Shown: piece by piece, positions 55,873 through 64,000 of the stretch | Numbering within the stretch: the stretch's first letter is position 1 | Layout of the letters: each line of letters begins with the position of its first letter | DNA from: Kiloniella spongiae | GTDB taxonomy: Bacteria > Pseudomonadota > Alphaproteobacteria > Kiloniellales > Kiloniellaceae | NCBI RefSeq assembly: GCF_001026905.1 | Contig: NZ_LAQL01000007.1 | Span: 124,001-188,000, forward strand | DNA: 64,000 bases | Direction of reading: 5' to 3' | Notes under the pieces: model-generated | Databases searched by the model: none | What the model was told of the DNA's origin: nothing | Seen by the model: only the letters and a program-made list of their open reading frames with translations | Position numbers and translations under genes: made by a program

Positions 55873-56113
55873 TAATAGCCAGGCGACATCATGTGTTGCT
55901 TCTGAAGAAGTCAGAAGCAGATGAGTATTATTCGCAACAATTAACACTTTTGAGAATGATTTGCAATTTCATATTTGCTCTTTTTTGTCGAAAATACTTT
56001 ACTGAAATCGTCGGATTAAGAAGAGAGTTTCTGGGTTTTTAGGGCGATTTTCTAGAAAGGGCATTGCTGAATTGCATACAAAAATAAGACAAAAAAGCAA
56101 AAGAGTCCGGCAC
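55873..56113. other. Regulatory gap upstream of imelysin
   Basis: Together with the tandem repeats and the bfr terminator, this forms the 374-base gap between the imelysin and bacterioferritin genes. It contains the Fur-like box at 55951-55965. I see no ORF with coding character. Confidence 0.55.
55951..55965. promoter_or_regulatory. Fur-like box upstream of imelysin operon
   Basis: TGAGAATGATTTGCA matches 11 of 14 defined positions of TGATAATnATTATCA. It lies 138 bases upstream of the imelysin start, a sensible place for iron control of the operon. Confidence 0.45.
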
Positions 56114-56150
56114 AAAAAAGCCAGTTACATCATGCGTAACTGGCTTTTTT
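56114..56150 (-). terminator. Terminator of bacterioferritin gene
   Basis: AAAAAAGCCAGTTAC pairs perfectly with GTAACTGGCTTTTTT around a 7-base loop. On the minus strand it follows bfr and runs into a U-tract. Confidence 0.92.
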
Positions 56151-56187
56151 TGTGATCATATTTTGAAGACTGAAATCTCTAAAAAGC

Positions 56188-56667
56188 TTAGTCGCCTTCG
56201 ACTTTACTCTGAGATTGGATGTAGTTCTGGATGCCAACACGTTTGATTAACTCAAACTGTGATTCCAGATGGTCCACATGCTCTTCTTCGTCAACCAAGA
56301 TTTCACGAAGAAGTTCACGACTGCCATAGTCTTGTACAGATTCACAATAGGCGATGCCTTCTTTGTAAACTTCAACGGCTTCGAGTTCGCCAGCGAGATC
56401 ACATTTCAGAATTTCTTCTACATCTTCCCCGATTTTAAGTTTGTTCAGGTTTTGAAGATTTGGGAACCCATCAAGAAGCAGAATGCGATCCATAAGCTTG
56501 TCAGCGTGCTGCATTTCTTCGATGGATTCTTTGTACTCATGCTTGGCAAGACCTTCAACGCCCCAGTCCTGCAGAAGTTTGTAGTGAAGGTAGTACTGGT
56601 TAATTGCCGTCAATTCGTGCGTTAAAGCAGTGTTCAGGTGCTCGATGACTTTTTTGTCGCCTTTCAT
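56188..56667 (-). CDS. bfr: Bacterioferritin
   Basis: A 159-residue ferritin-like protein that stores iron in a 24-mer. Ferroxidase ligands match E. coli Bfr position for position: E18 (THELTAINQYYLH), E51 and H54 (EEMQHAD), and the later E94, E127 and H130 regions (GELEAVEVY; VDEEEHVDHLE). M52, which binds haem between subunits, is present, so it is a true bacterioferritin. GAGGATATC precedes the ATG. A near-perfect Fur box lies 135 bases upstream. Confidence 0.96.
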   Translation of the reverse strand: MKGDKKVIEHLNTALTHELTAINQYYLHYKLLQDWGVEGLAKHEYKESIEEMQHADKLMDRILLLDGFPNLQNLNKLKIGEDVEEILKCDLAGELEAVEVYKEGIAYCESVQDYGSRELLREILVDEEEHVDHLESQFELIKRVGIQNYIQSQSKVEGD

Positions 56668-56975
56668 GATATCCTCGCTTTGAATTTGTTCTTATTTGAA
56701 ATTTATTATCTTACTACAGCTTGCGATCTACTTTAGAATCTTTCCAATAATGTAAATTGTTTGATGAAATTTTCAAGTAGTTTGTAAAAAAATATAGTTA
56801 TTGATAATGATTATTAATTTTTGAATTCTGAAAAAGAAATTTAGAATAGTATAGTTTTGCGTAGTTATAATATTGATGGCTCATGGGTGGTGCGCTTTAA
56901 GCTTGAATTGAATATTGATCGTTAATTCTAGTAATGTATTTGATGCTATATTGTGCTTTTTATTTTAGATTTGTT
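56668..56975. other. AT-rich regulatory gap upstream of bfr
   Basis: About 308 very AT-rich bases between bfr and the end of the MocR-type gene, both on the minus strand. It contains the Fur box at 56802-56816; no coding ORF seen. Confidence 0.6.
56802..56816. promoter_or_regulatory. Near-consensus Fur box upstream of bfr
   Basis: TGATAATGATTATTA matches 13 of 14 defined positions of the 7-1-7 Fur consensus TGATAATnATTATCA (one C-to-T change). It is the best such match in the window and lies in the bfr promoter region. Confidence 0.7.
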
Positions 56976-58400
56976 TTAAAAGAAGTCACAAGAGCTTTCA
57001 TTTGGATTTGAGAGGACTGTACTGAGTTTTATTAATCCTCTTTCCAGTTGTTGTATTGTGTCTGGGGTCATTATCGAGAGCCTGATGTTATGTTTCCCGG
57101 CAGTTGTATTGTTGGCAAAGCGGCTACCGTCGAGAATATGGACTCCGGCCTTGGCCGCGCGACGTACAAGCTGTGATGTAGAGGTTGTTTCCGAAAGCTC
57201 GATCCACGCATGTGATTGGCACGATGCGTAATTGGTGATGTAGGGCGCGAGGATACGATTTGTTAAGTCGTGACGTTTTCCTGCTGCAATGGTGGTTTGA
57301 CGAGTAAAAGAGGTAAGATCTTCTGTGCGTCCGGCAATTTCCATGGCTGCGTTGGTTAGTATTGGCGAAACCATCCAGGTTTGGGCCGTGATGCCCTGGG
57401 CCATAAGCATGGTCAGGTGAGGCGGTGCAACAGTAAAGCCAATGCGTAGAGAAGGAGAGATCCTTTTCGCTAAGCCACTGAGATAAATTGCTTGTTCAGG
57501 GAAGATCTCAGCATAGGGTGGTGGGGCATCTGGATAAAGAAAGCCGTAGATATCATCCTCTATAATGAGGACATCATATTTTTGTGCAATTAACCCAATT
57601 TCTTTCCTGCGTGCGATAGGTGTTGTGATGCAGGTTGGGTTGTGGCCTGTCGCTGTCGTAACCAGAATACGGACGCGGCCCTTTTTACAATGTTGCTCAA
57701 AAGAAACAGGGCAAATGCCCATGGCGTCGGTCTCTACTGTTAAACTGGATAGTCCTAACTGTGATATCGCTGCAGAGACACCGGGGTAGCTCAATGGTTC
57801 TTGGCATATTGTGTCGCCGGGTGATGCTAACCGCCCAAGGGCCGTATAAACACCATTTTGAGCGCCATGATTGATAAGCATCCTATCTTCGCTTATCCCT
57901 TGCAATGTTTCAGGTAAAAATACCCGCAGCGCTCGCTTCTGCTGATTATCGCCAAAGCCATCCCGATAGGTCATTAGGTTGAAGCTTGAAGCTTTGGTTG
58001 AGGTGCGTTGCAGGGCCCAGCGAATTATTTCTTCGCCCCAATCATTGGCGATGGCATTCAAGCCTAAATCAATAATTGTATCGTTTTTTAAGGGGGGCAC
58101 ATAATTTGATTGAAGAGGATTGGGTAGAATAACATCAGCACCAATGTTCGCTGCTTCCTGAACGAAAGTTCCTTGACCTACTCTGGCATTCACTAATCCT
58201 TTACGCTCAAGGGAGCTATAAACCCGAGACATAGTACCAAGGCTGCATTTGGCCTCCCAGGCGGCGGTTCGTAAAGGGGGCAGTTTCTCGCCGGGCAGAA
58301 GAACACCGTCGCGAATTGCTGTCTTGAACAGTTGTTCCAAGTGAGCGTATTTTTGACCTTCGCCGGGTTTATTTTTTGCAATGAGAGAAAGAATTGTCAT
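56976..58400 (-). CDS. MocR/PdxR-type regulator (GntR HTH plus aminotransferase domain)
   Basis: A 474-residue fusion. The N-terminal winged helix-turn-helix (residues 17-82, PPLRTAAWEAKCSLGTMSRV with YSSLERKGLV) is followed by a fold-type I aminotransferase domain with PLP lysine K312 in LSGLAKRISPSLRIGF and aspartate in IIEDDIYGF. ATG 58400 is chosen because it directly precedes the domain; the frame is open 33 codons further without homology. It diverges from a LysE-type exporter gene, its likely target. A TGTTCA/TGAACA dyad lies between them. Confidence 0.9.
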   Translation of the reverse strand: MTILSLIAKNKPGEGQKYAHLEQLFKTAIRDGVLLPGEKLPPLRTAAWEAKCSLGTMSRVYSSLERKGLVNARVGQGTFVQEAANIGADVILPNPLQSNYVPPLKNDTIIDLGLNAIANDWGEEIIRWALQRTSTKASSFNLMTYRDGFGDNQQKRALRVFLPETLQGISEDRMLINHGAQNGVYTALGRLASPGDTICQEPLSYPGVSAAISQLGLSSLTVETDAMGICPVSFEQHCKKGRVRILVTTATGHNPTCITTPIARRKEIGLIAQKYDVLIIEDDIYGFLYPDAPPPYAEIFPEQAIYLSGLAKRISPSLRIGFTVAPPHLTMLMAQGITAQTWMVSPILTNAAMEIAGRTEDLTSFTRQTTIAAGKRHDLTNRILAPYITNYASCQSHAWIELSETTSTSQLVRRAAKAGVHILDGSRFANNTTAGKHNIRLSIMTPDTIQQLERGLIKLSTVLSNPNESSCDFF

Positions 58401-58417
58401 AGGAACAATATAGTAAT

Positions 58418-58430
58418 TGTTCAATGAACA
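58418..58430. promoter_or_regulatory. Candidate MocR operator in mocR-lysE gap
   Basis: TGTTCA-A-TGAACA, perfect 6-base arms, 18 bases upstream of the MocR-type start and 76 bases before the lysE-type start. Half-sites equal those upstream of the other MocR gene (13212-13230), with a one-base instead of three-base spacer. Confidence 0.5.
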
Positions 58431-58505
58431 TTTCAAGATAAATATGTAACGTATGACGAGCGACAAGATGTTCTGTCTGGTAATGAGATAAAAGGACACA
58501 AAGTC

Positions 58506-59120
58506 ATGCCAATAGAAAATATTATTCCAGCATTGATTTTTGCAGCAGTTATGTCCGGTACACCGGGACCGGCAAATATGATTTTGATGGCGACAGGAGC
58601 AAAATTGGGTTTTCGTGGGGCTCTACCTTTTACCTTTGGTGTTCAAAGCGGATTCTTCCTTGTCCTTGCCGTTGCCGCTTTTGGTATAACGAACCTTTTA
58701 AAAGAAGCGCCCGCACTTGCGCCTGTCATAACGGTGATTAGTAGTTGTTATTTGCTGTATCTGGCATGGAAAATTGCGAGATCTGACCCCGGGAAATTGT
58801 CTGGCGAACAAAGTAGCGATACCGTGGGGTATTTGAACGGCTTGATTGTGCATCCTATGAATCCCAAAGCATGGTTAATGGCAACGACTGTATTTGCCCA
58901 ATTTACAAACCAGGCCAGCCCTGTCCTTGAGCAGTGGGCGGTGATGTGTGTGGTGTTTATTATTGGTGGTTTTCCAACAAACTGTATGTGGTCATGGGGC
59001 GGTGCCAGAATAATATCCGCAATCCAAAGCCCGCAAAAGCGCCTGATTGTAAATGGTGTTTTAGCTATATCGACAGTGGCTATTGTGGCCTACATGGCTG
59101 CAGGACAAATCTTGATTTAA
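58506..59120 (+). CDS. LysE/RhtB family amino-acid exporter
   Basis: A 204-residue membrane protein with about six hydrophobic segments and the family's opening motif SGTPGPANMILMATGAKLGF (residues 18-37). HPMNPKAWLMATTVFAQF marks the second conserved block (NPK). These proteins export amino acids or homoserine-type compounds. Divergent pairing with a PLP-binding MocR regulator fits control by an amino compound or its adduct with PLP. Normal length. Confidence 0.9.
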   Translation: MPIENIIPALIFAAVMSGTPGPANMILMATGAKLGFRGALPFTFGVQSGFFLVLAVAAFGITNLLKEAPALAPVITVISSCYLLYLAWKIARSDPGKLSGEQSSDTVGYLNGLIVHPMNPKAWLMATTVFAQFTNQASPVLEQWAVMCVVFIIGGFPTNCMWSWGGARIISAIQSPQKRLIVNGVLAISTVAIVAYMAAGQILI

Positions 59121-59136
59121 TCTTAAGTTTGCAGGC

Positions 59137-59167
59137 AAAAAAAACGAGAGGGGCATTGCCTCTCTCG
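59137..59167 (-). terminator. Minus-strand Rho-independent terminator without a known gene
   Basis: A 10-base stem (CGAGAGGGGC with GCCTCTCTCG, one wobble, 3-base loop) is followed on the minus strand by eight U residues. On the plus strand no U-run follows. No minus-strand CDS lies upstream of it, which points to an unannotated transcript from within 59168-59530. Confidence 0.7.
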
Positions 59168-59356
59168 CTCAGTAAGGTCGATAGAGCTTCGCTGATTACA
59201 AAGTTGGCGGTAACCAGCTTGCCTTATATCCCCAAAGTATTTCTTGCTTGGGCAAAAACACAAAACACCAAAGCTAACTTCAGGAATCAATTTCCTGTCT
59301 TACTCTGAATGTTTTTTACTCAGATAAGAGAAAGAACATCGCAGGACAGGAGTACG

Positions 59357-59455
59357 ATGGCTCATGCACAAAAGCCACAACTAACAATATCAAGCACAGG
59401 GACTGACTTGTTCGTATGGGGCAAAAGTAGAATTCAAAGCGCAGGGTTGCAATAA
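59357..59455 (+). CDS. Possible 32-residue small ORF
   Basis: ATG with AGGAG five bases upstream opens a frame of 32 codons (start MAHAQKPQLTISS, end SRIQSAGLQ). The Shine-Dalgarno is better than those of several real genes nearby. There is no family match I know, and the length is too short to judge coding bias. Listed as a candidate only; it may be chance. Confidence 0.22.
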   Translation: MAHAQKPQLTISSTGTDLFVWGKSRIQSAGLQ

Positions 59456-59530
59456 AGCGTTGTGTAATTTTGCAAAGTTTGTAAAATTATTTAGGATATT
59501 TTTCTAAATTTTGTGAAAGATGTAAATGTC

Positions 59531-61045
59531 ATGGCGCGACAGATATTTGCGGGGCGAAAAATTCGCCATTTAAGAAGCCAGATAGGACTTACTCAAATTG
59601 CCATGGCAAAGAAAATCGACATTTCTGCTGCCTATTTGAATTTAGTTGAGCATAATCAACGCCCCTTATCAAGAAAGCTGCAAAAAAAGCTGGAAGAAGC
59701 TTTTAACGTGAAAGAGGGTGAGCTTACTGGCGGAGAAGAAGCCAGACTCCTCTCTGCGATGAATGAGCTTTTCTCTGATTCCTTGTTTGAAAGATCAAGG
59801 CCTGATGCCACGATACTTGGTGATTTTGTTGCCATGCATCCTGAAATTAGCCGAGCTTTGTTAAAGCTGTATCGAGCTTTTCGAAATGCGCGTGAAGATA
59901 CGCTCAAGGCACGAGAGTCGATTTCTTCTGATCCCTACTTTACAAAAACCAGCCATCAACTTCTGACGCAGCTAACCTCCATCAGATCCTTTGCCGAGAT
60001 TTTACAGGATAATGATGATCTTTCAGAACATCAGCGAGAAAGGTTTACCAACGTCCTTGTAGATGAAAGCCAAAAGTTAACCTTGATGGTTGGGGAGCTG
60101 TTTGATTTTATTAATGGTGAATCAAAGCAAGCTGCATTGTTGAGTGAAACACCGACCGATGAAGTCGTTGATATGCTATCGGCCAATGACCACTACTTCC
60201 CGATTTTGGAGCAAGCCGCGGAGGAGCTCAGGAGCCGTTTGGGTGAGCCAAAACCCTATGGATTATTCGATGCCTTGGCCAACTATCTTGATCAGCAACT
60301 CGGCATTGAGGTTGAGGTTGTGCCGGTCTCTTCGCAAGGGACACTTTTGCGAGGAATGTGGGAGTTAAAGGGAGAGGATGGCGGTACGCTTAGGTTGATG
60401 GAGACTTTGGCGACGAGTTCTCTGAACTTCAGAATGGCAAGGATTATTGCGGAAGTTGCGTATGCTGATGTGCTGGAAAACGTGCTTTCAAATGTTCCTC
60501 TGAGTAGTAAAGAAGCTAAAAACCTGTGCTTGAAGGCTCTAGGGAGTTATTTCGCGGGGGCGGTTATGATGCCTTATAGCGCTTTTCGGAGTGCCGCTTT
60601 TGAGTTGCGTCATGACATTGATTTGTTGCGTCGACGGTTTCGAGCAGGTTTCGAGCAGGTTTGCCATCGACTGACAACCTTGCAAAAGTCCGAGGAAGAG
60701 GGGGTGCCATTCCACTTTATCCGGGTAGACCTCGCGGGCCAGATCTCAAAACGTTTCAGTGCATCTGGTCTACGGATACCAAGGTATGGTGTTCTTTCGC
60801 CTGATTGGGGGGTGCAGGATGCGTTTTTGAAGCCGGGACGTATTAACCTTCATTCATTACGCGCAGAAGATCAAAGTGTGTATTTTTCTATATCAAAAAC
60901 CGTGACCAAACCTGGTGTGATGGTCGGGCAGGCGGGTAATACCTTTGCTGTGAGTTTAGGGTGTGAGGCTTCGTTTGCACGACACGTGGTTTATGCTGAT
61001 GGTGTGGACTTTGCGCACCCAGACAGTGTTTTGATTGGAAATTAA
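59531..61045 (+). CDS. XRE-ScfR regulator carrying a HisKA-like segment
   Basis: A 504-residue regulator. Residues 8-65 form an XRE helix-turn-helix (IRHLRSQIGLTQIAMAKKID, AAYLNLVEHNQRPLS). Residues 138-196 read like a histidine-kinase dimerisation domain: SHQLLTQLTSIRSFAEIL with the phosphoacceptor-position H142, then a second helix RFTNVLVDESQKLTLMVGEL. The C-terminal half is a ScfR domain (LCLKALGSYFAGAVMMPYSA, GFEQVCHRLTTLQ) as in short-chain-acyl-responsive regulators. H+1 is Gln instead of Glu/Asp, so autokinase activity is unlikely; H+4 Thr is kept. No ATPase domain. First of an operon with a receiver and a PutP-type kinase. ATG 59531 is used; GTG 59513 is possible. Confidence 0.85.
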   Translation: MARQIFAGRKIRHLRSQIGLTQIAMAKKIDISAAYLNLVEHNQRPLSRKLQKKLEEAFNVKEGELTGGEEARLLSAMNELFSDSLFERSRPDATILGDFVAMHPEISRALLKLYRAFRNAREDTLKARESISSDPYFTKTSHQLLTQLTSIRSFAEILQDNDDLSEHQRERFTNVLVDESQKLTLMVGELFDFINGESKQAALLSETPTDEVVDMLSANDHYFPILEQAAEELRSRLGEPKPYGLFDALANYLDQQLGIEVEVVPVSSQGTLLRGMWELKGEDGGTLRLMETLATSSLNFRMARIIAEVAYADVLENVLSNVPLSSKEAKNLCLKALGSYFAGAVMMPYSAFRSAAFELRHDIDLLRRRFRAGFEQVCHRLTTLQKSEEEGVPFHFIRVDLAGQISKRFSASGLRIPRYGVLSPDWGVQDAFLKPGRINLHSLRAEDQSVYFSISKTVTKPGVMVGQAGNTFAVSLGCEASFARHVVYADGVDFAHPDSVLIGN

Positions 61046-61161
61046 TTTATGCCAGTGCAAAGGTGTGAAGACTTAGCTTGGCAAAACACCGAACAACACT
61101 GTAATGTAAGGCCAACAGGGAATAATAAAAGAGATAACCGGATAGCGGAGAAAGGCAGAAA

Positions 61162-61545
61162 ATGCCTCAAACGGTTCTTGTGGTCGAGGACGAACCTCAT
61201 ATTGTCGACTCATTAAGCTTTCTCATGAAGAAGGCTGGCTTTGACGTTTTTATTGCACGTGATGGTGATGCCGCCTTGCGGATGGTGGAAAGCCGTCCAC
61301 CTGATCTGATATTGCTTGATATTATGTTGCCTAGAAGAGACGGTTTCGAAGTCTTGAAGTATGTACGTTCAAATGACGCGTGGAAAGAAATGCGTGTTAT
61401 TTTGCTAACGGCAAAAGGACGTGATGTTGATCGATTGAAGGGAATGGAACTCGGCGCGGATGATTTTGTGACAAAGCCCTTTTCAACAAAAGATGTTGTT
61501 CGCTTGGTTAAACAACACTTGGGTGTTGAAGAAAAGCTGGCTTAA
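61162..61545 (+). CDS. Single-domain response regulator (receiver only)
   Basis: A 127-residue CheY-like receiver. The acidic pair is in VVEDEPHIVD, the phosphoacceptor D53 is in LILLDIMLPRRDGFE, the switch threonine is in VILLTAKG and the lysine is in VTKPFSTKD. There is no output domain, so it must act by protein contact or in a phosphorelay. It lies between the HisKA-bearing regulator and the small membrane protein, 116 bases after the former. The downstream symporter-type kinase is its likely phosphodonor. Confidence 0.92.
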   Translation: MPQTVLVVEDEPHIVDSLSFLMKKAGFDVFIARDGDAALRMVESRPPDLILLDIMLPRRDGFEVLKYVRSNDAWKEMRVILLTAKGRDVDRLKGMELGADDFVTKPFSTKDVVRLVKQHLGVEEKLA

Positions 61546-61607
61546 GGTCTTTCAAATTAATGGCAGAACGACGCCCCATGTTCGCGATTTCCCTGGAAGG
61601 AGTATGA

Positions 61608-61946
61608 GTGAGCCGTCCCGGTGATAAAGGTGATCGCAGTATTGCGCTTTTCCTATTGGCGTTGCTGCTTTTTAGTCCTCTTTTTTTATCTATTTTTAGT
61701 GATGAGAAGCTTGTGTGGGGTCTCCCGCCATTATTTCTATATCTCTTTGCCGCTTGGGGAGGAATTATAGCTGCGGTTGCCTGGTCTGCTTCGAAAGATG
61801 CTGATGATGCGACAAATGCAATTGATCCCAATGCACCGACAGTGATTGATACGCTGGTATCCGATACGAGCGCCGTGTCAGATAAAGAACTATCGACGGA
61901 TCAGAATAAGAAATCTTCTTTAAAGGGTGATGGTCGTGCTGGTTGA
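61608..61946 (+). CDS. Small two-helix membrane protein (symporter small-subunit-like)
   Basis: A 112-residue protein with two hydrophobic helices (about residues 11-31 and 36-60, the second WGLPPLFLYLFAAWGGIIAA), then an acidic soluble tail. The start is GTG 61608, with AAGGAG seven bases upstream; the out-of-frame ATG at 61604 gives only a six-codon peptide. The topology and G-x-P motif resemble the small DUF485/DUF4212 subunits that accompany ActP-type sodium symporters. Its stop overlaps the start of the symporter-type sensor kinase by 17 bases, so the proteins are probably made as a pair. Family assignment is inferred. Confidence 0.7.
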   Translation: MSRPGDKGDRSIALFLLALLLFSPLFLSIFSDEKLVWGLPPLFLYLFAAWGGIIAAVAWSASKDADDATNAIDPNAPTVIDTLVSDTSAVSDKELSTDQNKKSSLKGDGRAG

Positions 61947-64000
61947 TTGGATCATCATACTTTCTTCTATCGGATATCTTCTTGTTCTCTTTGCTATTGC
62001 TTATTTCGCGGACAAGCGCGCGGAACGAGGGGCCGGGATTACATCACACCCCTATATCTACGCGCTTTCTCTAGGGGTCTATTGTACATCCTGGACATTT
62101 TACGGGTCGGTTGGCCGCGCGGCTTCAAGTGGTTTGGATTTTCTGCCCATTTATCTGGGACCTACCCTTGTTTTTGTTTTGTGGTGGCTGGTTGTTAAAA
62201 AGATCATCCGAATAACAAAGGCCCATCGTATAACATCAATTGCCGACTTCATATCTTCCCGGTACGGGAAAAGTACGCCTTTGAGTGCTTTGGTGACAGT
62301 GATCGCAGTTGTGGGAATTGTGCCCTATATATCCCTTCAACTTAAGGCGGTTGCCACCAGCTTTAATGTTTTAAAGCAATACCCCGAGGTGATCGCGCCT
62401 CTTAATTCGCCCCCAATCGCCACTGTTGCGGATACAGCCTTTTGGGTGGCATTGGTTCTGGCAATCTTTGCGATCCTGTTTGGGACGCGCCATATTGATA
62501 ACAGTGAACATCACGATGGTGTCGTGGTGGCGATTGCCTTTGAATCCGTTGTGAAGCTTCTTGCCTTTTTAGCAGTCGGGATTTTTGTGACCTTTGGGCT
62601 TTATGACGGTTTTGGTGATCTCTTTCAGCAGGCGTCACGTGTACCGGAGCTTCTACAGTTGATGACCTTTGAAAAGGAGGGCGCCTATACAACATGGGTG
62701 ACGTTGACGACCTTATCCATGGTTGCTGCGGTGTGTTTGCCGCGACAGTTTCAGGTTATTGCTGTCGAGAACGTTAACGAACCCGAGCTTCGAAAAGGCG
62801 TATGGCTTTTCCCACTCTACCTGCTTGCCATTAATATTTTTGTTTTGCCCATTGCGTTGGGCGGGATGCTCCAATTTCCGCGCGGGGATGTAAACGCAGA
62901 TACTTTCATCCTCACCCTTCCCATGGCTCACGAGCAAGAGATGTTGGCCCTGTTGGTGTTTTTGGGGGGACTCTCTGCTGCGACCTCTATGGTGATTGTT
63001 GCGACAATTGCCCTCAGCACGATGGTTTGTAATGATTTGGTGATGCCAGTGCTCTTGCGGTGGAACTGGCTTGGCCTGAAGCGAAAAAGTGATTTTACAG
63101 GCGTCCTGCTTTTTGTTCGTCGCAGTAGTATCATTCTTATTCTCTTGTTTGGATATGCCTACTTCCGCTTCTTGGGCGAGAGTGACGCGCTTGTCACCAT
63201 TGGCTTGATTTCCTTTGCCGCAGTTTTCCAGTTTGCGCCAGCTATGATCGGGGGAATGTTCTGGAAAGGCGGAAATCGTAAAGGAGCGTTGGTTGGACTG
63301 TCTTTGGGATTTGTTGTTTGGGCCTATACGCTTCTTCTACCTGCTTTTGCGAAATCAGGACTATTGCCCATTACGTTTATTGCCGCTGGTCCCCTGGGCA
63401 TTGAACTATTCAGGCCCTATGAGTTATTCGGATTGCAGGGATTGGATCATTTAACCCATGCGCTTTTCTGGACGACGGTCTTTAACGCCGGTGCATATGT
63501 GTTTGTATCGCTCTATACACGACACTCTGCGATTGAGCGTGTACAAGGGGCGCTATTTGTCGATGTCTATCGGTATGCCGACCAAGGACCGCGTTCGCAG
63601 TTATGGCAGGGATCTGCCTCTGTAGAAGACTTGTTCAACCTTCTTGTTCGTTTTTTAGGGCGAGCCAGAGCAGACAGAGCTTTCAGCGGATATTTTAGAG
63701 ATCGAGGTTTGGAACGCAGGCGTGTTATTACGGCTGATGCAGACTTGGTTCACTTAACAGAACGTCTTCTTTCCGGTGCCATTGGTGCAGCGTCTGCCCG
63801 TGTAATGATTTCTTCAGTTGTGAAGGGGGAAGTTGTCCGCCTTGAAGAGGTCATGACTATTCTGGATGAAACTTCACAGGTTATTGAATATAGCCAAAGC
63901 CTGGAGCAGAAATCCAAGGAACTGGAAAGCACGACGGCGCAGTTACGAGCTGCAAATGAACGCCTGCAGGAGCTTGATCGCCTAAAAGATGAATTTTTAT
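61930..64000 (+). CDS. PutP/SSS-type sensor histidine kinase (partial, runs off window)
   Basis: The first 690 residues of a long protein, with no stop before the window end. Residues 1 to about 510 are a sodium:solute symporter domain with many membrane segments (HPYIYALSLGVYCTSWTFYG; SIADFISSRYGKS; TTLSMVAAVCLPRQFQV). A linker then leads into a coiled coil that ends LQELDRLKDEFL, the usual lead-in to a HisKA H-box. This is the CbrA/CrbS architecture, in which a transporter-like sensor drives a kinase for acetate or carbon utilisation. ATG 61930 is used; it overlaps the preceding gene. Confidence 0.9.
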   Translation, partial: MVVLVDWIIILSSIGYLLVLFAIAYFADKRAERGAGITSHPYIYALSLGVYCTSWTFYGSVGRAASSGLDFLPIYLGPTLVFVLWWLVVKKIIRITKAHRITSIADFISSRYGKSTPLSALVTVIAVVGIVPYISLQLKAVATSFNVLKQYPEVIAPLNSPPIATVADTAFWVALVLAIFAILFGTRHIDNSEHHDGVVVAIAFESVVKLLAFLAVGIFVTFGLYDGFGDLFQQASRVPELLQLMTFEKEGAYTTWVTLTTLSMVAAVCLPRQFQVIAVENVNEPELRKGVWLFPLYLLAINIFVLPIALGGMLQFPRGDVNADTFILTLPMAHEQEMLALLVFLGGLSAATSMVIVATIALSTMVCNDLVMPVLLRWNWLGLKRKSDFTGVLLFVRRSSIILILLFGYAYFRFLGESDALVTIGLISFAAVFQFAPAMIGGMFWKGGNRKGALVGLSLGFVVWAYTLLLPAFAKSGLLPITFIAAGPLGIELFRPYELFGLQGLDHLTHALFWTTVFNAGAYVFVSLYTRHSAIERVQGALFVDVYRYADQGPRSQLWQGSASVEDLFNLLVRFLGRARADRAFSGYFRDRGLERRRVITADADLVHLTERLLSGAIGAASARVMISSVVKGEVVRLEEVMTILDETSQVIEYSQSLEQKSKELESTTAQLRAANERLQELDRLKDEFL

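Follow-up and report, generated by a model that had tools for sequence, protein, structure and literature searches.

At the end of a 64,000-nucleotide stretch of the Kiloniella spongiae genome (contig NZ_LAQL01000007.1, positions 124,001 to 188,000 of the forward strand; hereafter the window) lies a four-gene operon that encodes an ScfR-type transcription factor, a stand-alone receiver, a small membrane protein and a histidine kinase fused to an SLC5 transporter domain. We report that the transcription factor carries a DHp hairpin, the part of a histidine kinase that bears the phospho-acceptor His, and that this hairpin is specifically related to the DHp of the operon's own kinase; the combination recurs well beyond Kiloniella. 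With somewhat more confidence than doubt, we favour as the best model a pathway for carbon-source signalling in which the kinase would act through the phosphorylated receiver on the DHp of the regulator, giving an output that is not a response regulator.

The ScfR regulator and its DHp hairpin

Pfam places four domains in the regulator, namely HTH_3, HisKA (30.6 bits, cut-off 26.9), Peptidase_M78 and ScfRs (116.6 bits, cut-off 24), the last making it a member of the ScfR family (PF09856) and the one ScfR of this genome; its score with the RamB equivalog model NF038139 (293.6 bits) is below the curated cut-off of 700, and Pfam finds no HATPase domain in it. The protein is 97% identical to its counterpart in K. 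majae. The DHp hairpin sits between the HTH and the ScfR core, and its residues 140–212 (510-residue numbering) align with the DHp of the operon kinase at 40% identity (E 3e-14). In a search of the whole genome, which holds 62 HisKA matches, the operon kinase scored E 2.2e-13 and the next relative 4.9e-5; by sequence comparison the two DHps are each other's specific relatives within the genome. The receiver-docking-like module that the original prediction had placed in the transcription factor proves to be this HisKA/DHp hairpin, kin to the operon kinase DHp and with its His kept. In the next best relative in the genome (L269, G000:C12:803100-803600), the phospho-acceptor His is replaced by Tyr (SYELRTPL), as it is in DivL.

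After near-identical loci had been thinned, a tree was built on only 69 columns from the DHps of 63 regulators and 60 SLC5 kinases, from 20 further HisKA domains (chosen by us from the 62 of the genome) and from one small DHp protein. All 63 regulator sequences fell into one clade (support 0.89) and the 20 further HisKA domains into another (0.82); the kinase DHps did not form a clade. On these sequences a single origin of the regulator DHps is supported, its exact source not being pinned down by the tree. An AlphaFold2 monomer model of the regulator (mean pLDDT 85.2, pTM 0.66) has helices 135–160 and 166–203 at the DHp, with low confidence near 197–204. PrpR was the best structural match to the model in Foldseek (E 2.5e-22), with IrrE and HTH proteins also among the clear matches, and structures of Thermotoga HK853 match regulator residues 141–209 weakly (E 4e-4).

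The Pfam HisKA model, which detects the DHp in the window regulator, misses it in the Paracoccus and Neorhizobium regulators examined, where a purpose-made DHp profile does detect it; this may be why the domain has gone unremarked. We found no ScfR or XRE regulator with a DHp described in the titles and abstract openings of the literature searched, which covered few subscription papers. Pden_1785 is mentioned, and only mentioned, as an ScfR clustered with two-component genes (PMC10370305).

The kinase, the small membrane protein and the receiver

Reading the DNA past position 64000 brought out the kinase core as expected: the complete protein has 921 residues, with HisKA and HATPase_c domains and, by Pfam, neither a PAS nor a receiver domain. 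Its N-terminal half matches the SLC5–STAC structure of CbrA, 10ED (CbrXA; PMC13022988), at E 6.9e-75 as a single sequence and at 3.5e-106 as a profile of 20 homologues; the profile match covers the sequence as far as residue 590 of 606, the single-sequence match stops at 451, and Pfam calls no STAC. On its own the Pfam SSF model makes no call on the kinase at E 0.1; the 10ED match in the transporter half upholds the proposal of a symporter-type, CbrA-like kinase, and the fusion of an SLC5 transporter domain to a kinase is a trait that the protein shares with the SLC5/STAC histidine kinases (CbrA/CrbS type).

The gene of the small membrane protein lies upstream of the kinase gene and overlaps it by 20 bases, just as cbrX lies upstream of and overlaps cbrA (PMC13022988), for which translational coupling has been reported (PMC6591292). 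CbrX is a two-helix peptide bound to the SLC5 domain of CbrA and is dispensable for growth on histidine (PMC13022988). The two helices of the protein studied here were read from the sequence by eye, and 18 aligned membrane proteins have P24, F30, P40 and W50 in common; a profile search found no homologous PDB chain, and the resemblance to CbrX lies in position and overlap. The receiver has a single Response_reg domain by Pfam, in keeping with the claim that it has no output domain.

Distribution and gene order

At the level of the order, 49 of 61 genomes match the DHp at E 1e-7 and 44 of 61 have a regulator-sized open reading frame (ORF) that carries it (counted by hand). At the level of the class, 121 of 386 genomes match an HTH–DHp profile at 1e-12. 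A match reaching column 194 or beyond identifies a DHp-ScfR in at least 46 of these 386 alphaproteobacterial genomes; the remaining matches listed all end by column 162, and since weaker ones are unlisted the figure of 46 is a lower bound. None of four fetched matches that end near column 160 (L236–L239) has the DHp. A peptide-pattern scan gave 77 loci, of which eight belong to the Kiloniella lineage, each with all four genes; 67 of the 69 others have the HTH and the ScfR core in one ORF, and two are incomplete. The DHp was found in none of these 67 ordinary ScfRs, even at E 1, whereas the 46 training sequences score at least 85 bits.

The usual order is regulator–receiver–kinase. Outside the order, regulator, receiver and kinase are contiguous on one strand in 28 of 41 class-level loci (counted by hand), so that gene order is conserved far outside Kiloniella; the other 13 comprise two loci of mixed orientation, one with 4 kb between the genes, one without a receiver, one with regulator and receiver only, and eight whose fetched sequence (≤13 kb) contains the regulator only. 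A membrane protein was picked up in most of the 41 but not in all. When the regulator and the kinase are not neighbours, each often has a receiver beside it (e.g. L129/L130, L136/L137, L140/L164). Named examples are a plasmid of Neorhizobium sp. SOG26 (NZ_CP025513.1) and Paracoccus ferrooxidans (CP038202.1), annotated there as XRE regulator, response regulator, hypothetical protein and sodium:solute symporter. In a sample of the phylum, 37 of 397 genomes matched at E 1e-40, all of them from the same class, which does not amount to restriction to that class, as the classes sampled are unlisted; the DHp end is missing in 2 of 38 listed matches. One genome (G056, L314:13477-15738) has the receiver, membrane protein and SLC5 kinase beside a 165-residue HisKA ORF (no HATPase) and an OmpR-type regulator, and the DHp search of the order-level genomes found no DHp-ScfR in it; this arrangement possibly resembles a relay with the DHp as a separate protein.

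Residue conservation and the proposed relay

Of 84 regulators, 79 were aligned, five being omitted as truncated, split or near-identical. The phospho-acceptor His is present in 71 of the 79, the others having Phe (4), Tyr (2) or Gln (2). The acid at H+1 is kept, as Glu, in 12 and missing in 67; at H+4 there is Thr in 63, Ser in 11 and Asn in 3, hence Thr/Asn in 66/79. Pro at H+5 is absent from all 46 order-level regulators and present in 45/45 kinases. All 84 receiver sequences of the loci, each scoring above 120 bits, retain D8, E9, D51, T/S81 and K103 (trimmed-domain numbering). Among the 21 regulators that have no receiver next to them, 8 have lost the His, versus none of the 58 that do have one (Fisher p 8e-6).

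Considering that the order is conserved, that no other output gene follows, that the DHp of the regulator is kin to that of the kinase and that its His is kept, kinase–receiver–regulator is the natural reading. From the domains, the DHp relationship, residue conservation, gene order and a shared upstream motif, all of which are plain in the sequences, we infer docking, phosphotransfer and its direction, the targets and the signal. In the proposed mechanism, the SLC5-type kinase and its small two-helix membrane partner would sense a substrate, and the kinase would phosphorylate the free receiver. The phosphorylated receiver would then dock on the DHp hairpin of the regulator, shared by descent with the kinase, and would either phosphorylate the conserved His or switch the regulator by docking. 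The regulator would bind paired TTTGTRAA boxes and control the operon that encodes it; in relatives, acs or symporter genes would probably be targets as well. The more specific proposal for the DHp-ScfR class across Alphaproteobacteria, that a captured kinase DHp is phosphorylated on its His by the free phosphorylated receiver and the pathway thus ends on the phospho-His of a DNA-binding protein, we put forward tentatively, at a little short of even confidence.

Several observations weigh against the relay model. A kinase DHp is absent from the best 50 Foldseek matches to the regulator model. The losses of the His amount to only three independent events, and counted by clade (3/11 versus 0/14, p 0.07) their association with the lack of an adjacent receiver is not significant; 13 of the 71 His-bearing regulators also have no adjacent receiver. 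In four genomes of one genus (G217, G379, G306 and G098) the His position is occupied by Phe, yet receiver, kinase and acs lie about 7.5 kb away, and all 15 genomes tested, these four included, still have the kinase. Finally, the only acs above cut-off in the window genome is on contig C55, unlinked to the operon.

Docking without phosphotransfer, in which the phosphorylated receiver would switch the regulator sterically or the DHp would reset the receiver by acting as a phosphatase or sink, we judge rather unlikely, while regarding it as a serious competitor. HisKA kinases use the acid at H+1 for their kinase activity and the Thr/Asn at H+4 for their phosphatase activity (PMC3510030), so that the regulators, with the acid mostly gone and Thr/Asn mostly kept, have the pattern of a phosphatase-competent, kinase-dead HisKA; moreover, the rest of the DHp is retained in some regulators whose His position is taken by Phe, Tyr or Gln. 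The conservation of the His elsewhere is, however, more than docking alone or a phosphatase strictly requires: CrdS H371A lost little phosphatase activity, whereas PleC H610A lost it (PMC3510030). The same missing acid, needed for phosphorylation by a kinase domain, makes it very improbable that the kinase phosphorylates the regulator DHp directly in a mixed dimer; the homology of the two DHps would permit this, but the conserved receiver would be left without a role. DHp domains dimerise, and the hairpin, being missing from ordinary ScfRs, might merely be a dimerisation module of the factor while receiver and kinase act elsewhere. That PrpR works as a tetramer (PMC6765138) speaks for such a module; nevertheless the conserved His, the linked receiver and kinase genes and the specific kinship with the operon kinase DHp render it improbable.

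Operator boxes

Two TTTGTRAA boxes 32 bp apart lie upstream of the operon in all eight Kiloniella genomes searched; elsewhere in each genome the pair has 0 or 1 hits, as has a reversed control (0 or 1), the exception being G047. In that genome, a tandem repeat of a 16-base unit with TCTGTAAA (G047:C16:117787-117954) yields nine overlapping two-box hits. The box TTTGTAAA or its complement occurs upstream of the regulator in 50 of 84 regions versus about one in mononucleotide shuffles. Since it is also found upstream of 28 of the 67 ordinary ScfR genes, the box belongs to the ScfR family. Two boxes on the same strand, 32 bp apart, are seen in 21/84 regions (6 of the 21 from the Kiloniella lineage) versus 0/67 for ordinary ScfR genes, and the pattern of paired boxes makes autoregulation of the operon probable. 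The palindrome TTTGCAAA, considered as a general motif, is present in only a minority of the upstream regions. Prediction of a regulon by the two-box site in Kiloniella gave little beyond the operon itself, and we claim no targets from it.

Acyl-CoA and acetate

To bind CoA, PrpR needs a [4Fe4S] cluster; Cys363 and C447-X2-C-X4-C455 are among the ligands (PMC6765138). The corresponding GAF Cys and CX2CX4C are present in 75 of the 79 aligned regulators, and the four rows without them are from the Kiloniella lineage, window protein included. Over all 84, the CX2CX4C motif was found in 74; of the ten without it, six are of the Kiloniella lineage, two are cut by contig ends, one has a split frame and one a motif one residue shorter. 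Because the four predicted cluster cysteines are lost, acyl-CoA sensing in Kiloniella is doubtful, and the earlier suggestion that this protein senses acyl-CoA through its ScfR domain is not supported; to judge from these residues, the regulator of Kiloniella probably no longer depends on acyl-CoA input.

In gammaproteobacteria acs is under the control of CrbS/CrbR (PMC5436829), which in Sinorhizobium fredii governs the use of acetate (PMC9100948). In relatives of the system studied here, acs comes after the regulator in G037 (L125), where it scores 1031 bits with TIGR02188 (cut-off 725), and before receiver and kinase in the four Phe-bearing genomes and in G257, making three lineages and six genomes in total. 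A divergent SSS symporter gene stands beside the regulator at 18 of 84 loci, and at several of these a CBS-DUF294 protein and a DnaQ-type exonuclease are encoded close to the kinase as well. The acs and symporter neighbours point to acetate or similar carboxylates as the theme, so that the predicted link to acetate and carbon use gains support from the relatives, although the best acs of the window genome is on another contig; by eye, no parts of the system occur in the 18 kb around it. Just upstream of that acs are two adjacent, very similar PAS- and EAL-like proteins (L244:4354-7902, by eye).

Relation to known systems

The operon shares with CrbS/CrbR, RpuS/RpuR and CbrA/CbrB a kinase fused to an SLC5 transporter domain and, in relatives, a link to acs, and with CbrA/CbrB a small membrane protein upstream. 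It differs from these SLC5/STAC systems, on the basis of Pfam, in that its kinase has no PAS domain and its receiver is free (CrbS also has a C-terminal receiver), and in that the output there is a LuxR- or NtrC-type response regulator and here an ScfR factor with a DHp. No LuxR-type response regulator such as CrbR stands beside the operon, the rest of the genome not having been searched for one. With ScfR, PrpR and RamB proteins the regulator shares the HTH, M78-like and ScfR domains; it departs from them in the DHp inserted between HTH and core and, in Kiloniella, in the lack of the iron–sulphur (Fe–S) cysteines. The Spo0F–Spo0B and CckA–ChpT phosphorelays likewise comprise a kinase, a free receiver and a DHp with His and no catalytic domain, and the residues seen here appear compatible with such a scheme; the DHp here is, however, within a transcription factor, and the chain would end on a His with no terminal response regulator. 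If the relay is true, two-component signalling would have a new type of output, receiver-only genes beside SLC5 kinases would gain a partner, and there would be a testable route to carboxylate control in Paracoccus and relatives.

Layout of the locus

The layout proposed at the outset, four co-directional genes with the last two overlapping, is borne out by the ORF coordinates (Table 1), all on the + strand with 116 bases between regulator and receiver and 62 between receiver and membrane protein. For the regulator we prefer the ATG start, since the conserved operator box 2 overlaps the GTG.

Table 1. Features of the operon and its upstream region (window coordinates)
Feature	Coordinates	Strand	Remarks
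Putative operator	59469..59517	+	TTTGCAAA 59469-59476; box 1 TTTGTAAA 59478-59485; box 2 TTTGTGAA 59510-59517; boxes 32 bp start to start
DHp-ScfR transcription factor	59531..61045	+	504 residues from ATG 59531; 510 residues from GTG 59513
HTH_3 DNA-binding domain of regulator	59561..59725	+	Pfam
DHp (HisKA) hairpin of regulator, kin to operon kinase DHp	59930..60148	+	His codon 59954-59956
M78/IrrE-like and ScfR domains (PrpR-like core), without Fe–S cysteines	60293..61030	+	
Stand-alone receiver	61162..61545	+	Pfam
Small two-helix membrane protein, CbrX-like in position	61608..61946	+	
SLC5-type histidine kinase	61927..64000, on past the window to genome C66:188692 (L002:8692)	+	GTG 61927 or ATG 61930

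No receiver–HTH gene that might be a partner of the kinase's own follows it in the 11 kb read downstream, as judged by eye with no family search; the genes seen there, again by eye, look like those of an ABC-F protein, MlaC and MlaA, a thioesterase, a pentapeptide protein, a chloride channel, a desuccinylase-like protein and UvrD. The possibility of intrinsic terminators within the operon's gaps was considered and rejected: L002:3000-9000 has three terminator-like sites against a shuffle mean of 6.7, one of them within the membrane-protein gene and one within the receiver gene. Rfam gave zero matches at gathering score in window 56000-64000. Upstream of the operon, at window 56976-59120, translations read by eye indicate an ordinary-looking divergent pair, one gene for a GntR/MocR-like regulator and one for a LysE-like exporter.

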